The notes under the pieces are model-generated. The model was not told the origin of the DNA. It searched no databases and saw only the letters and a list, made by a program, of their open reading frames with translations. DNA of 64,000 nt from Pseudomonas sp. MPC6 (GTDB lineage: Bacteria; Pseudomonadota; Gammaproteobacteria; Pseudomonadales; Pseudomonadaceae), in NCBI RefSeq assembly GCF_006094435.1, contig NZ_CP034783.1, positions 4,739,001-4,803,000 of the forward strand, read 5' to 3'. Made by a program: the position numbers and the translations under genes. Of this stretch, positions 54,373-61,384 are shown one piece after another. How positions within the stretch are numbered: position 1 is the first letter of the stretch; each line of letters opens with the position of its first letter.

Positions 54373-55494
54373 ATGACCAGCATGCCCAGCCTTGACTCCG
54401 ACCTTGCGCTCCCCGTGAAATCCCCCAGGCCTGCCCTGCTCAAGCGTCTGTTACTGTTGAGTGCCGCCATTGCCGGCCTGGTAATCGCCGGGCTGTACGC
54501 GACTCACTGGTGGGCCGCCGGCCGTTTCATCGAAGAAACCGACGATGCCTACATTGGCGGCGACGTGACGGTGATCGGGCCAAAGGTCGCGGGTTATATC
54601 GAAGAAGTGCTGGTCACCGACAACCAGCAGGTCAAGGCCGGCGACGTATTGATACGGCTCGATTCCCGTGACTACCGCGCCCACCTGGCCAAGGCCGAAG
54701 GTGCGGTGGCTGCCGAGCAAGCGTTACTCGCCAACCTCGACGCCACCGAACAACTGCAACACGCGGTGATCGGCCAGGCCCGTGCCGGAATCGATGCCGC
54801 CGGCGCCGAAACCGCGCGGTCACGGGACGACAATGCGCGCTACAAACGCCTGGTGAGCAGCAATGCCGTCTCGGTGGAAAGTGCCCAGCGCGCCGACGCC
54901 ACCTTCAAGACGGCCCAGGCATTGAGCGCCCGGGCCCAGGCCGAACTGCTGGCCGCACAACGCCAGCTGGCCGTGATAGACACCCAAAAACAACAAGCCC
55001 GCGCCGCGTTGATGCAGGCCCGGGCCGAGCGTGACCTGGCGCAACTGAATGTCGGCTACACCGAGCTGCGGGCGCCGATCGATGGCGTGATCGGCAATCG
55101 TCGCGCGCGCGCCGGCGCTTATGCCCAGGCCGGTTCACAACAACTGTCGGTCGTGCCGGCCCGCGGGCTGTGGGTCGACGCCAACTTCAAGGAAGATCAA
55201 CTGGCACGCATGACGCCAGGTCAGCGGGTGATCATTCATGCCGATGTGCTCTCGGGACAGGAATTCCACGGCCACCTGGACAGCCTCGCCCCGGCCAGCG
55301 GCTCGCAATTCAGCGTGCTGCCACCGGAAAACGCCACCGGCAACTTCACCAAGATCGTGCAGCGGGTGCCGGTGCGGATCCTGCTCGACCCGGCCGACGG
55401 CGTGCTTGGCCATCTTCGTCCGGGCCTGTCGGTGACCGCTGAAGTGGACACCCGCCAAGGGCCTGAAACCCCGGCCGTGGCCAGCGCACCATGA
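54373..55494 (+). CDS. EmrA-like membrane fusion protein (HlyD family), second pump
   Basis: 373-residue adaptor. The N-terminal membrane helix is about 25-46 (LLLLSAAIAGLVIAGLYATHWW). The lipoyl half-motif TDDAYIGGDVTVIGPKVAGYI, a helical hairpin (about 98-205), and APIDGVIGNRRARAGAYAQ follow. It overlaps the MFS gene by four bases (ATGA). It pairs with that permease as an EmrAB-type pump, but no outer-membrane factor is encoded here. A palindromic operator candidate lies upstream. Confidence 0.88.
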   Translation: MTSMPSLDSDLALPVKSPRPALLKRLLLLSAAIAGLVIAGLYATHWWAAGRFIEETDDAYIGGDVTVIGPKVAGYIEEVLVTDNQQVKAGDVLIRLDSRDYRAHLAKAEGAVAAEQALLANLDATEQLQHAVIGQARAGIDAAGAETARSRDDNARYKRLVSSNAVSVESAQRADATFKTAQALSARAQAELLAAQRQLAVIDTQKQQARAALMQARAERDLAQLNVGYTELRAPIDGVIGNRRARAGAYAQAGSQQLSVVPARGLWVDANFKEDQLARMTPGQRVIIHADVLSGQEFHGHLDSLAPASGSQFSVLPPENATGNFTKIVQRVPVRILLDPADGVLGHLRPGLSVTAEVDTRQGPETPAVASAP

Positions 55495-57083
55495 GCCGCG
55501 CCCTCGCCGCCCCCGCAGCACCCTTCGATGCCGCGAGCATGGCGACGGCGACCAAGGTCTTCGCCTTCGCCAGCATGTGCATCGGCATGTTCATCGCCCT
55601 GCTGGATATCCAGATCGTCTCCGCCTCGTTGCGCGACATCGGCGGCGGACTTTCGGCCGGCACCGACGAAACCGCGTGGGTGCAGACCAGTTACCTGATC
55701 GCCGAAATCATCGTGATCCCGCTGTCCGGCTGGCTGTCCCGGGTGTTCTCGACCCGCTGGCTGTTCTGCGCCTCGGCGGTGGGTTTCACCCTGGCCAGCC
55801 TGTTGTGCGGCGTGGCCTGGAACATCCAGAGCATGATCGCCTTCCGTGCCCTGCAGGGGTTTCTCGGTGGCTCGATGATCCCGCTGGTGTTCACCACCGC
55901 GTTTATCTTCTTCAGCGGCAAACAACGGGTGATCGCTGCTGCAACCATCGGCGCGGTGGCCTCGCTGGCACCGACCCTCGGGCCGGTGATCGGTGGCTGG
56001 ATCACCGACATTTCGTCCTGGCACTGGTTGTTCTACATCAATTTGATCCCGGGGATTTTCGTCGCGGTGGCGGTGCCGATGCTGGTGAAGATCGACCAGC
56101 CGGAACTGTCGTTGCTCAAAGGCGCCGACTACCTGAGCATGCTGTTCCTCGCGCTGTTCCTCGGCTGCCTGGAATACACCCTCGAAGAAGGCCCGCGCTG
56201 GAACTGGTTCAGCGACAGCACGATCCTGACCACCGCCTGGATCAGCGGCCTGGCCGGCCTCGCCTTCATCGGCCGCACCCTGCACGTGGCCAACCCGATC
56301 GTCGACCTGCGCGCCTTGAAAGACCGTAACTTCGCCCTCGGCTGCTTCTTTTCGTTCGTCACCGGGATAGGCCTGTTCGCCACTATTTACCTGACGCCAC
56401 TGTTTCTCGGCCGGGTGCGTGGATATGGCGCGCTGGACATTGGCCTGGCGGTGTTCTCCACCGGCGTGTTCCAGATCATGGCGATTCCGCTGTACGCCTT
56501 CCTGGCCAACCGCATCGACCTGCGCTGGATCATGATGACCGGCCTTGGGCTGTTCGCCTTGTCGATGTGGGATTTCAGCCCGATCACCCACGACTGGGGG
56601 GCCAAAGAATTGATGCTGCCCCAAGCCTTGCGCGGGATTGCCCAGCAACTGGCGGTGCCGCCCGCCGTCACCCTGACCCTCGGCGGCCTGGCACCCTCGC
56701 GGCTCAAGCATGCTTCGGGATTGTTCAACCTGATGCGCAACCTGGGGGGCGCCATCGGCATCGCTGCGTGCGCGACCATTCTCAATGACCGCACCAACCT
56801 GCACTTCACCCGGCTGGCCGAAAACCTCAACAGCAGCAACGAAGCCTTGAACCAGTGGCTGACCCAGGTCGGCACCAACTTCGCCGCCCTGGGCCAGAGC
56901 GGCGACGTCGGCGTCACCGCCAGCCTGCGTCAACTCTGGCTGCTGACCTACCGCGAAGCCCAGACGCAAACCTACGGCGACGCGTTCCTGATGATCATGG
57001 TCGGCTTCATCATCGCCACGGCGATGGTGCCCTTGATGCGCAAGGTGCAACCACCGGCCGCGCCGAGTGTGGATGCTCATTGA
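55491..57083 (+). CDS. DHA2-family MFS transporter, second EmrB-like pump
   Basis: 530-residue permease with about fourteen membrane segments. The first helix is FIALLDIQIVSASLRDIGGGLSAGTDETAWVQTSYLIAEIIVIPLSG, motif A appears as GWLSRVFSTRW, and the motif C-like segment is ASLAPTLGPVIGGWI. It is translationally coupled to the adaptor gene. The last 84 bases are duplicated as a diverged copy at 59206-59283, downstream of the inserted transglutaminase gene. Confidence 0.88.
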   Translation: MSRALAAPAAPFDAASMATATKVFAFASMCIGMFIALLDIQIVSASLRDIGGGLSAGTDETAWVQTSYLIAEIIVIPLSGWLSRVFSTRWLFCASAVGFTLASLLCGVAWNIQSMIAFRALQGFLGGSMIPLVFTTAFIFFSGKQRVIAAATIGAVASLAPTLGPVIGGWITDISSWHWLFYINLIPGIFVAVAVPMLVKIDQPELSLLKGADYLSMLFLALFLGCLEYTLEEGPRWNWFSDSTILTTAWISGLAGLAFIGRTLHVANPIVDLRALKDRNFALGCFFSFVTGIGLFATIYLTPLFLGRVRGYGALDIGLAVFSTGVFQIMAIPLYAFLANRIDLRWIMMTGLGLFALSMWDFSPITHDWGAKELMLPQALRGIAQQLAVPPAVTLTLGGLAPSRLKHASGLFNLMRNLGGAIGIAACATILNDRTNLHFTRLAENLNSSNEALNQWLTQVGTNFAALGQSGDVGVTASLRQLWLLTYREAQTQTYGDAFLMIMVGFIIATAMVPLMRKVQPPAAPSVDAH

Positions 57084-57118
57084 GCGCGCCCGTGGGTCTA
57101 CACGTCAGATCAATATCA

Positions 57119-57138
57119 CTGGAGGCTGCGCGGCCTCC
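57119..57138. terminator. GC hairpin after the MFS gene
   Basis: TGGAGGC-TGCGC-GGCCTCCA forms a strong stem between the convergent MFS and transglutaminase genes. There is no T-run, so a terminator role is only likely. Confidence 0.4.
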
Positions 57139-57206
57139 AATCAACCAGTCAATAACGACGCACCCTCTTGAACCGGCCCTGTTGTGACACCTGGAACCCG
57201 ACAACC

Positions 57207-59069
57207 CTATTGAACCTGAACCACGATCTGTGATTTCAAATCGCTCACCATCGAACCAATCACTGAACTCATGCCTTTGAAATCATCAGGACTGCACAAC
57301 GCACTGGGGTTGTAAAACTTTAAGTATCGACGAACGACCACTGCGCCTGGCTCTTTTGAGTAATTGGAGATGTACTCAAACTTTTGATGGCGCAAGGTCA
57401 TCGACTTAGGCACCGCGACAATACTGACCTCTTTTGCAAACTCAAAACGCGCCTGCTCTTCAGTCTCTCCCGAGATGCAGGTAAAGGCCTGACCACGATC
57501 GCTCTCCGCTGCGAACGTAAAAACGTTCTGCGCAATACCTCCAGCGAAGCTGCTCATAGTGAAAACGCCCGTAGGCCCGGGAAAGCCAACCAGATTCTCC
57601 GCCAGACCGACCACTTTTATTGAAAGTTCGTTAGTGCCAGCCTCAAGTTGGGTGGCGCTGAACTCTCCTTTACCCGTCTGTCCGTAGCTCGCCAGGACTT
57701 GTTGCACCCACTGGTTTCTATCAACGGCGCTCATGGAGTTAATAGCGTAACGATTGGGTTCTGCTGCCCAACCTGTGATTTGGGATGAGTGAGTAAAGTC
57801 GGCGTCACCGTTTTCGCGAACCTTGAACACCGTGGTGCTCTCAATCTTTCCGTCCTGTGTGGAAGGTGTACGTCCCAGCGCTCCTGACTTGCTGAAAACG
57901 ACAGGTTTATCCAGATTGAAAATAGGCAGATAACCGCCCGCAACTCCTTCTGCGGTCGAGTCCAGATAAAGGTCCAAGGTCGGAATATAGGTAATTACAT
58001 GATTGATCACACCCAGGGTTGGCACCTTGGGCAAGGTATAGGCATTCTCGGCGTTAAGCAGCGCAGGCGTGCTCTCTATAGCCACTGCCGCGAGCAATGA
58101 CTCCAACAACACTACGTGATCTTTGCAGTCGCCATAGCGATTGGCCAGAATCGTTTCGACCGGATTAGGCACGACACTGCCCGCCCCCACATAGACTGCG
58201 ACATAGCGGATATTTTTTCGTACCCAATCATTCAGGGCAATCGCTTTGTCCCGAGGGTCAACCAGATGGGCGGTTATCGTTTGTGCCAACTGACTGATGT
58301 CTGCTGTTACACGACTCTTCGCCCGGGCATCGTAAGCCTGGGCAAAGGCCTGGAAGTCAGGAAATGTAGAAACTGCCAAATACTGACCGTAATCCTAGTA
58401 AGCGACAGAGCCATGTTCGATACGAGCTTTTTTGTCAGGGATATTGTCCCACCGGTAAATTGTCCGTCCCGCCATAGTGACAGGATCGCTGGCCTTGAAG
58501 CCTCGAGCATCGGCGTACAATGGCATGCTCTGCGGCAAGTCATAAACAAGCGTGTACCGCTCGGTTGGGTGAAATGTGGGATGCGATAACGACTCGAAGT
58601 GCTGCGGGAACAATGCAGTGTTGCGATGAGTTTTGTATCGAATGGAAAGACGGTCACCCACGGCGACGTCGGGAAAGATGACCACCTTGACCAATGTATC
58701 CTGAAACATTGGTGCGTCCGCTGAACCGCGCTCTTGCTGCTCTTTGATCTGGTCAGGCTTGACCACAAACTTTCGACCATCCGGCTTTTGTGTGAATGCC
58801 TCGACGACCTCCAGGCTTTCCAAGGTGCGGTTGTAGCTCAAATGATGCTGTGCATAAACGTTAATGGCGCGTTCTTCGTTAATCAAGATCACTATGTCAT
58901 TGGTAGCCATGAAGCTGCCGTCTGCGTTAATGACATGCTTGCGAATATCTTTTTCGATGGTGATCGAGGTGTCTGTGCCATCGTTGTTGGCCAACGCGGA
59001 CGTTACTGCCATAAGACAGCAGGCGATAAAACCAAGTAATCGCACACACTGGAAGATATAAAGTCGCAT
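57207..59069 (-). pseudogene. DUF3857/transglutaminase-like gene broken by one in-frame amber codon
   Basis: One continuous frame encodes a signal peptide (LLGFIACCLMAVTSALANN), a DUF3857 domain (about 40-220) and then a transglutaminase-like core. The frame is stopped only by a TAG at 58395-58397 (codon 225, ..HGSVAY*DYGQYLAVS..) and continues intact from 58394 to the stop at 57207. The catalytic triad lies after the TAG and is complete: RYGDCKDHVVLLESLL (Cys), INHVITYIP (His) and LYLDSTAEG (Asp). Homologous proteins are single chains of this size. It could be a recent nonsense mutation, a read-through gene or a sequencing error. The DNA is visibly lower in GC than its neighbours. Confidence 0.85.
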
Positions 59070-59205
59070 ATGAACACACTTGATAAATTAGATGTGTTCG
59101 CAATATACCGCAGCATTACATCGAAAAGTGCGCCCCCTCGACGCTGAAAGCAGAATCAGAACACTCCTACATAGGTCCTACAGAAACGTCCTTCAGAGGT
59201 CCGTA

Positions 59206-59283
59206 GTCCGTTTCATCCTCGCCACGGCGATGATGCCCTTTACAAGTAAGATGCAACTACGGGCCGTGGCGAGTGTTCATTGA
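59206..59283 (+). repeat. diverged partial copy of the MFS gene 3' end
   Basis: Aligned by hand to 57000-57083: 63 of 78 compared bases match and there is one 6-base gap. The copied frame reads VRFILATAMMPFTSKMQLRAVASVH with the same TGA. Everything between 57084 and 59205 appears inserted relative to an ancestral arrangement. Confidence 0.85.
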
Positions 59284-59293
59284 ACGTTGCGTG

Positions 59294-59734
59294 TTACTCC
59301 TGAGGCATCTTGCGAAAACCAACCGCCAACCGGTTCCAGCTATTGATGGTGGAAATCGCCACGGTCAGGTCGACCATTTCCTTGGGCGTGAACTGGGCCG
59401 AGACCAATTCATAGTCTTCATCCGGCGCGCGGGTCAGGCTCAGTTGAGTCAGGGATTCGGTCCAGGCCAGGGCGGCGCGCTCGCGGGGGCTGAAGAACGG
59501 CGTCTCGCGCCAGGCGGTCACGGCGAACAGGCGACGCGGGGTTTCACCTCCCTTGATTGCATCGGCGGTGTGCATGTCGATGCAGAAGGCGCAGCCGTTG
59601 ATCTGCGAGGCGCGCAGCTTGACCAGTTCGATCAGCGACTGTTCCAGCGGCAGCTTCGACACTGCGGTCTCCAGGGCGATCATGGCTTTGAGGGCGTCGG
59701 GGGAAGCCGTGTAGAAATCGATACGAGGTTGCAT
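59294..59734 (-). CDS. AhpD/carboxymuconolactone decarboxylase-family protein
   Basis: 146-residue alkylhydroperoxidase AhpD-core protein. The redox motif is INGCAFCIDMHTADA with Cys48, Cys51 and His55, preceded by the conserved Glu in LIELVKLRAS. It is likely a small peroxidase or thiol-disulfide protein. The ATG at 59734 (MQPRIDFYTASPDAL) follows GGAGCCCACC, so the earlier in-frame ATG at 59752 is less likely. It stands alone. Confidence 0.9.
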   Translation of the reverse strand: MQPRIDFYTASPDALKAMIALETAVSKLPLEQSLIELVKLRASQINGCAFCIDMHTADAIKGGETPRRLFAVTAWRETPFFSPRERAALAWTESLTQLSLTRAPDEDYELVSAQFTPKEMVDLTVAISTINSWNRLAVGFRKMPQE

Positions 59735-59869
59735 GGTGGGCTCCGGTAACAAAGGATGTGGCGCTACGTTAATCCCGCACCGGCATGCAGCAAATAGCCA
59801 ATTATTGGGAAGTCGAGGATGCCAATGGCGGCCTACTCGATTGCAGCCGCCAGCGTGATCTTCGAACCC

Positions 59870-61312
59870 CTACGTCCGATTGCGCAACCATTGCAGGAAA
59901 CCCCTCTTCGCCTCGACCTTAGGCACTTCCTGGGTGAGCGTGCGCGCCTTGTTCAAGCGGAAATCCAGCAGCGCTTTCATCGCCTCGCTGATGTCATGCC
60001 GCGCATCCAGGCAGGGTTTGAGGTATTCCTTCTCGATCCGGTACAGGCTGCAGAAGGTCTTGGCGGTGAATTGCGCCGGGAGCGCCGTATCGGACACTAT
60101 CCCGCCCTCGCCGATCACCTCGCCCGGCCCCATGCGTCCGGACTCGAACATCACGCCGCCACGGCTCAGCTCCACCGAGACCACGCCGGATTCGATGATC
60201 AACAGATGATCGCTGACCTCCCCTGCCGCCAGGATCAGTTCCCCGGCGCGGAAGGTTTGCAGGGTCATGTTCTGGCTGAAGGTTTCCTTCTCTTCCTGAC
60301 GCAGGGTCGAGAAGATGGTCGAGGTATCCAGCAATGCCCGTGGCCGTGACAGGTTGACCGGGGCATTCGATTCGACGCTCGACAACAGGCTGACGCCGCA
60401 GGCATGCAAGTGCCGGAACGCCAGGTCGAACAGCTGGTTGCGCACCATGCGTTTCTGATCCATGGACTCGACGAAACCGCTGATTTCGTATTCCATCCCG
60501 GCGCTGCTGGCGCTTTTCAACGAGACGCTGGGCGCCGGTTTGCTCAACAACTGGCGGCAGCCCTGCATGGCCCGTTCCAGGGCTTCGATCACCGTGTTCG
60601 GTCGCGCATGGGGGCTCAGTTGCAGGCTGATCGAGACGCCGAAAATGTCGCTCGGGCGGCTGAAGTTGATGATCTTGGCCTTGGCCGCCAGCGAATTGGG
60701 GATCACCGCCATGCTGCCCTGGGCGGTTTGCAGGCGCGTGGCGCGCCAGTCGATATCGGTGACCCGGCCTTCGGTGCCGTCGATGGAGATCCAGTCATCC
60801 AGTTGATAGGGTTTGGTGGTGTTGAGGACGATGCCGGAGAACACGTCACTGAGGGTGCTTTGCAGGGCCAGGCCGACGATGATCGCCAACGCGCCGGACG
60901 TGGCCAGGACGCCCTTGACCGGGAGTTCGAGCACGTAGGCCAGGGCGGCGATGACGGCGATCAGAAAGATCACCGCGCCGAGTAAATCCTGCAACAGCCG
61001 CCCGGTGTGCCCGACCCGCTGCATCATCGCCGCGCCGATCAGCACCGTCAGGGTTCGCGCGGCGAACAGCCACCAACCGATCTGCAAACCGACCGCTGCC
61101 AGGTGCAGCGGGATGTTGTCAGCCCAGGGGGCCGGCTCCAGCGGGTTCAGGCCTTCGTTGAACAGCACGACGCTGAACAGCGAGAAAATCACCAGGCGCA
61201 CCACCAGTTTCCAATGACTGCCATTGGCACTGATCAACCGCCACAGGCCAAGATCGATCAGGACCAGGGCCAAGGCGCAGAGCAAGGGGTGATCGGTGAG
61301 CAGGGACAACAT
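59870..61312 (-). CDS. MscS-superfamily channel with cyclic nucleotide-binding domain (bCNG)
   Basis: 480-residue membrane channel. It has four to five N-terminal membrane segments, then the MscS pore-lining helix and beta domain (LATSGALAIIVGLALQSTLSDVFSGIVLNTTKPYQLDDWISIDGTEGRVTDIDWRATRLQT, about 160-220). A C-terminal cNMP-binding domain follows (about 345-460, FRAGELILAAGEVSDHLLIIESGVVSVELSRGG..GPGEVIGEGG). The architecture is that of bacterial cyclic nucleotide-gated channels. The ATG at 61312 is used; an earlier in-frame start at 61384 overlaps a REP. Confidence 0.89.
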   Translation of the reverse strand: MLSLLTDHPLLCALALVLIDLGLWRLISANGSHWKLVVRLVIFSLFSVVLFNEGLNPLEPAPWADNIPLHLAAVGLQIGWWLFAARTLTVLIGAAMMQRVGHTGRLLQDLLGAVIFLIAVIAALAYVLELPVKGVLATSGALAIIVGLALQSTLSDVFSGIVLNTTKPYQLDDWISIDGTEGRVTDIDWRATRLQTAQGSMAVIPNSLAAKAKIINFSRPSDIFGVSISLQLSPHARPNTVIEALERAMQGCRQLLSKPAPSVSLKSASSAGMEYEISGFVESMDQKRMVRNQLFDLAFRHLHACGVSLLSSVESNAPVNLSRPRALLDTSTIFSTLRQEEKETFSQNMTLQTFRAGELILAAGEVSDHLLIIESGVVSVELSRGGVMFESGRMGPGEVIGEGGIVSDTALPAQFTAKTFCSLYRIEKEYLKPCLDARHDISEAMKALLDFRLNKARTLTQEVPKVEAKRGFLQWLRNRT

Positions 61313-61384
61313 CGAGCGACTCCAGACACGTGCGGATGGGCACAGTGTAGGAGGATTTGATGCCTTCAGAACAACACAAAACAC

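Follow-up and report, generated by a model that had tools for sequence, protein, structure and literature searches.

We analyzed a 64,000-nucleotide stretch of DNA from Pseudomonas sp. MPC6 (the window). An emrA-like gene for a periplasmic adaptor (54373..55494, plus strand), which matches HlyD families and scores below the cut-off of NCBIfam TIGR00998, lies immediately upstream of an emrB-like gene for a DHA2 efflux protein (55491..57083, plus strand; TIGR00711 above cut-off). The other flank is an ahpD-like gene of the CMD family (59294..59752, minus strand; PF02627 and TIGR00778). Between these flanks lies an inserted segment of lower GC content (57084..59205), which we delimited by aligning four carriers and which is absent from 107 of 132 distinct loci. 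A preliminary description of the window had noted GC-poor DNA beyond emrB, and this was borne out. The GC content of 57084-59195 is 51.1%, compared with 61-64% in the flanks (63.7% in emrB and 61.5% on the ahpD side, 59284-61384) and 61.5% in the window. The only gene recognized in the insert carries DUF3857 and Transglut_core domains (57207..59069, minus strand; Pfam-type matches) and is referred to here as the transglutaminase-like cargo gene. In the window a TAG stop at 58395-58397 breaks its reading frame, and it is a single open frame in four other carriers. The TAG could mean that the gene has become a pseudogene, or it could stem from an error in sequencing.

The 3' end of emrB is repeated beyond the cargo gene. 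The last 84 bases of emrB (57000-57083) align with 59206-59283 with one 6-base gap, and 64 of the 78 aligned bases are identical; the preliminary description had counted 63 of 78, and the recurrence it reported is real. Ungapped similarity reaches further upstream, with 73 of 100 bases identical between 56971-57070 and 59177-59276. A BLAST comparison of the emrB tail against the insert gave an E value of 3e-17, and the local score of the tail pair was 46, whereas 300 shuffled versions of the insert reached 17 at most. Based on the alignment of the two tails, the intact repeat copy, which is the emrB 3' end itself, spans 56971..57083 (plus strand). The displaced and decayed second end spans 59177..59283 (plus strand), with its strong part at 59206-59283, as judged from the alignment of carriers. 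The two tails form a direct repeat, so that imperfect repeats stand at both ends of the cargo. The displaced tail ends at 59283, and the convergent ahpD gene begins ten bases further.

Codon usage in the emrB tail showed some regularities of its own. Codons 503-525 correspond to 56998-57065, and synonymous diversity across codons 511-525 is 0.133, compared with a gene mean of 0.308. Codon 521 is CCA in 116 of 120 full-length genes. The case for the tail as a specially constrained DNA element is weak, since codons 226-240 have a lower diversity still (0.099). We also found six terminator-like sites within 57000-59350, where 2.0 were expected.

We examined the same junction in related genomes. 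The best 80 of 377 Pseudomonas matches, together with loci from further genomes, yielded 160 emrB loci, of which 132 were distinct. The further strong matches were fetched in 71 of 72 cases (G230, at a contig start, was dropped), and L196 and L197 were not used in the analysis. A set of 20 weaker matches served only to show what comes after emrB, and ahpD was close behind in two of them. In this sample, which includes the best 80 of 377 matches, fewer than 200 bases separate emrB from ahpD in 107 of the 132 distinct loci. Among these empty loci the spacing is 35 bases or less in 76 and more than 100 bases in 26. Filled sites, with more than 500 bases between emrB and ahpD, account for 17 of the 132 loci, two have small gaps of 349 and 377 bases, and the remaining six reach a contig end or have no ahpD in reach.

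The transglutaminase-like insert was found in five loci (the window, L003, L004, L006 and L092). These carriers form one clade in a tree of the emrB body (100/99) with the empty locus L008 as its sister, so a single ancestral insertion is the simplest reading. Across the same tree, filled loci are scattered among empty ones. The preliminary description had proposed an insertion that should be recognizable from empty sites with one tail directly adjoining ahpD, and the 107 empty loci, L008 among them, have this structure. None of the five carriers has the transglutaminase-like gene at this place without a second tail, an arrangement that would have spoken against the proposal. This insertion polymorphism among relatives supports the insertion reading.

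The emrB-ahpD junction is a recurrent hotspot at which several unrelated cargos occupy one site. We distinguished at least seven cargo kinds among the 17 filled loci, with one to six genes per insert. Besides the transglutaminase-like gene, these include an M60-like peptidase that also carries a Mucin_bdg module (Pfam matches in L085 and L037/L093; L145 is 57-60% identical to them) and Rhs proteins (L131 by Pfam; L130 is 86% identical to L131). Rhs genes also lie beyond emrB in loci that were not counted as filled (L020 and L058 by Pfam; L133 at 92% to L131). The largest cargo is a locus of about 8 and 11 kb with OEP, HlyD, family 2 glycosyltransferase and GGDEF genes in L083 and, at 86-94% identity, in L084. 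Other inserts code for small proteins: one of 145-146 residues in L011 and L066 (43% alike), without a Pfam match, and one of 75-76 residues common to L017 and L029 (38%). In L017 the latter lies beside a 101-residue ORF that looks bacteriocin-like; neither has a Pfam match. L055/L161 carry a 473-residue ORF, likewise without a Pfam match. No integrase or transposase was found among the cargo ORFs of at least 250 residues in the 17 filled loci, the 473-residue ORF of L055/L161 being without a family; of the smaller cargo ORFs, some were covered as well.

Filled sites share their left boundary and, in most cases, a second emrB tail. The emrB stop marks the beginning of the cargo in every carrier of the transglutaminase-like gene and in all 20 filled or Rhs-bearing loci compared. 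A second tail past the cargo is present in 12 of the 17 filled loci and with five cargo kinds (the five transglutaminase-like carriers, L011, L066, L029, L017, L085, L083 and L084), although the second tail of L017 is only 18 bases long. The displaced copy, its stop and the following spacer resemble the empty-site junction of relatives. By eye, the similarity of the tail copies starts at varying points, from about 56976 to 57023 in the register of the window; decay could shift the apparent start. Also by eye, the right end of the L029 insert is common with that of the transglutaminase-like insert. The inserts of L003/L004/L006/L092 and of L083, which hold unrelated cargos, agree in the eight bases that directly follow the emrB stop and are similar beyond them, as if they had come from source sites with the same spacer.

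We consider it probable that cargo is inserted or exchanged by crossover inside the repeated emrB end, through host recombination and without a dedicated recombinase. The incoming molecule would bring its own emrB tail next to the cargo and could be circular or a chromosomal stretch with the order tail-cargo-tail. In the window, a crossover within the emrB 3' end would have inserted 57084-59205 and given emrB its present end, displacing the older one to 59206-59283. The host's own recombination would suffice for this step, with no integrase required. The displaced tail would then be free to decay, and the direct repeat of tails would permit later excision or a further exchange of the cargo. 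The data show the insertion polymorphism, the unrelated cargos at one junction, the displaced tails and, in two lineages other than the window's, replacement of the emrB end; that a crossover was at work, what form the incoming DNA took, that cargo can be excised and in which order things happened in the window are inferred. Our more tentative suggestion is that the emrB 3' end could be a common docking sequence into which tail-cargo or tail-cargo-tail modules insert by host recombination alone. As part of that suggestion, the modules would carry enzymes, Rhs proteins, small bacteriocin-like genes and the glycosyltransferase/export locus.

Alleles of the gene end indicate where crossovers may have fallen. 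The comparison covered 120 loci with a full-length, 1593-base emrB and, of the empty ones among these, the 92 with a nearest relative at a level of at least 90%. Codon 526 is AGT or AGC in 93 of the 120 full-length genes and TCN in 27. In L083 and L084 emrB ends with AGT, whereas the close empty relatives (L166/L061, L060 and L182/L065) have TCA. The displaced copies in L083 and L084 are also TCA, and over 83 bases they match the empty locus L061 at 98.8% and 97.6%, respectively. A nine-base sequence located 99 bases ahead of the stop, present in 3 of 132 loci, is common to L083 and L166/L061, and the allele switch therefore lies inside the tail. L085 shows the same allele pattern, and its empty sister L040 has a TCA end. 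These alleles show that in L083/L084 and in L085 incoming DNA replaced the emrB end, the native one being left on the far side of the cargo. In the tree, the empty locus L182 is sister to L083 (100/93) and L084 lies outside (97/24, weak), an order that clean excision or two gains would fit.

Other loci are less favorable to a crossover in the tail. In the window's clade the emrB end differs from that of L008, but the displaced copies are also of the AGT type; this counts against the crossover model, and with both tails AGT no direction of replacement is readable there. The preliminary description had seen in the window the footprint of a foreign segment that replaced or recreated the end of its target gene. 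The insertion stands and end replacement appears in L083/L084 and L085, whereas for the window's own clade the direction does not follow. The absence of an allele switch in L066, L011 and L029 also counts against the model, as does the failure to find a second tail in 5 of the 17 filled loci (L145, L093, L161, L130 and L131). L161, one of these five, nevertheless has an end allele that differs from that of its nearest empty relative. Overall, the end allele differs from that of the nearest empty relative in 4 of 7 duplicated-tail lineages, compared with 10 of 92 empty loci (Fisher p 0.007, in a test chosen after the data were seen and with empty emrB loci, rather than the whole genome, as the baseline). 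A further point against the model is that the empty loci L031 and L160 are 98.3% alike in the emrB body and differ in their end alleles. Because both are empty, allele switches are not confined to filled sites; the difference is perhaps an insertion-excision footprint, or plain recombination. The displaced copy of L003 agrees with the copies of its siblings at 43-45 of its first 46 positions, whereas the rest matches intact tails at 58-63 of 65 positions (eight compared) and the siblings' copies at 47-52 of 63-65. This copy is a mosaic with a break inside the tail. The tail is exchanged in filled and empty sites alike.

We compared the emrB-ahpD junction with known systems, as described in the available portions of four papers. 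Oliveira et al. (2017; PMC5635113) describe hotspots without recognizable mobile elements, for which recombination at flanking core genes was inferred. The emrB-ahpD site resembles these in having one core-gene pair, several unrelated cargos and no integrase found, and differs in that a gene end of 60-107 bases is repeated past the cargo and that end alleles place exchanges inside it. The microcin H47 island of Escherichia coli lies between imperfect direct repeats of 148 and 144 bp, has no recombinase of its own and has natural empty sites; PCR revealed its excision, which was independent of RecA (PMC5426353). The window's insert and 11 others of the 17 likewise lie between imperfect direct repeats, with empty sites and no recombinase of their own found, but the H47 site holds one cargo type (PMC5426353), whereas the emrB-ahpD site has many, its repeat derives from a coding gene's end, and excision is a prediction. 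Prophage e14 enters the 3' end of icd in E. coli, supplying a new end and displacing the old one (165 bp; PMC11148124). The restored end of a protein-coding gene and the displaced old end have their counterparts in the structure of the window and in the alleles of L083/L084 and L085. Unlike e14, a prophage with a putative integrase gene (PMC11148124), the emrB-ahpD inserts hold one to six genes, with no integrase found. The core defence hotspots of P. aeruginosa have a median size of 26 kb and anti-phage content, and transfer through their flanks was suggested (PMC10250203). They share with our site a Pseudomonas core-gene pair and variable cargo not obviously belonging to one mobile-element group; their flanking genes are different, their regions are much larger and the available passages mention no repeated gene end (PMC10250203). 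The emrB-ahpD hotspot is not named in the titles or abstract openings of the open-licence literature searched. The filling of integrase-less hotspots is, in the parts of these papers available to us, still argued from population signals, with flank recombination inferred in PMC5635113 and suggested in PMC10250203. A displaced gene end with distinguishable alleles records the place of a crossover, so that at this small locus the mechanism can be read from the sequence and put to the test in a laboratory strain.

Other routes to the same structure have to be weighed against a crossover in the repeated end. Recombination between chromosomes could have run through long flanks only, with the tail duplicated by accident, once or a few times, and playing no role in transfer. 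The five filled loci that lack a second tail suit this account, as does L017, where the allele is switched on both sides and import of the whole region fits better, and recombination at flanking core genes is how the available text of PMC5635113 explains known hotspots. We nonetheless think it unlikely, because L083/L084 and L085 switch alleles inside the tail with native sequence past the cargo, and the mosaic copy of L003 places an exchange within the tail. The emrB end could instead be an attachment site for a tyrosine recombinase, as icd is for e14, if the inserts have lost their integrase or if one acts in trans. Restoration of the gene end with displacement of the old one (compare PMC11148124) and the constant start of the cargo at the emrB stop would both be expected of such a site. 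Against it stand the lack of an integrase among the larger cargo ORFs, the apparently varying points at which the similarity of the copies starts and the phage searches, in which the tail occurred in 0 of 50,697 records and IMG/VR gave no match to its exact 20-base core. In addition, L055/L161 duplicated ahpD sequence instead, in a mirror image of the emrB tail duplication: 200 bases from within ahpD recur, at 95.5% identity, as a displaced piece between two related small ORFs (in L161 the pieces are at 1998-2197 and 2747-2946 after the emrB stop). Pieces of either flank can therefore be duplicated, which fits flank-driven recombination better than one attachment site, and we regard an attachment site as improbable.

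It is very improbable that emrAB itself is the newcomer, with the tail by ahpD left over from a previous emrB and the intact emrAB acquired later, when the cargo was already present. Four of 398 genomes (L086-L089) do keep about 49-63 bases of an emrB tail next to ahpD, although the 11 kb fetched for each contain no match to emrB. L087-L089 have one arrangement and may represent one event, emrB beside ahpD prevails, the body tree puts filled loci among empty ones, and the emrB body of L083/L084 groups with its own empty relatives. Several further candidates were rejected. An insertion sequence or transposon would have a transposase, which we did not find, and terminal inverted repeats, of which the self-complementary tail itself was the only instance; nor did the window contain a tRNA to which an island could be linked. 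Phage or plasmid as the source of the tail was rejected on the phage, plasmid and IMG/VR searches; the plasmid hits (4 of 72,556 records) came from Cupriavidus, Variovorax and a Hyphomicrobiales, and one of them had a DHA2 transporter annotation while the other three had no listed feature. Homologues of the transglutaminase-like gene occur in 47 of 398 genomes, and a donor site elsewhere with an emrB tail was rejected because, of 30 homologue loci (about 4 kb each), the tail was present only in the three at this junction (the window, G252 and G208).

Some smaller features of the junction varied among relatives. The tails without emrB in L086-L089 lie at 5.4-5.8 kb in each locus. ORFs beside them read tentatively as sigma-factor-, anti-sigma- and TonB-receptor-like in L087-L089 and as a toxin-antitoxin-like pair in L086. 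The spacers of L030, L041, L054, L059, L070, L072-L076, L080 and L081 are about 60-380 bases long and consist of inverted-repeat sequence, which we take to resemble Pseudomonas REP elements, and the spacer between emrB and ahpD in L059 consists of three tandem inverted-repeat units.
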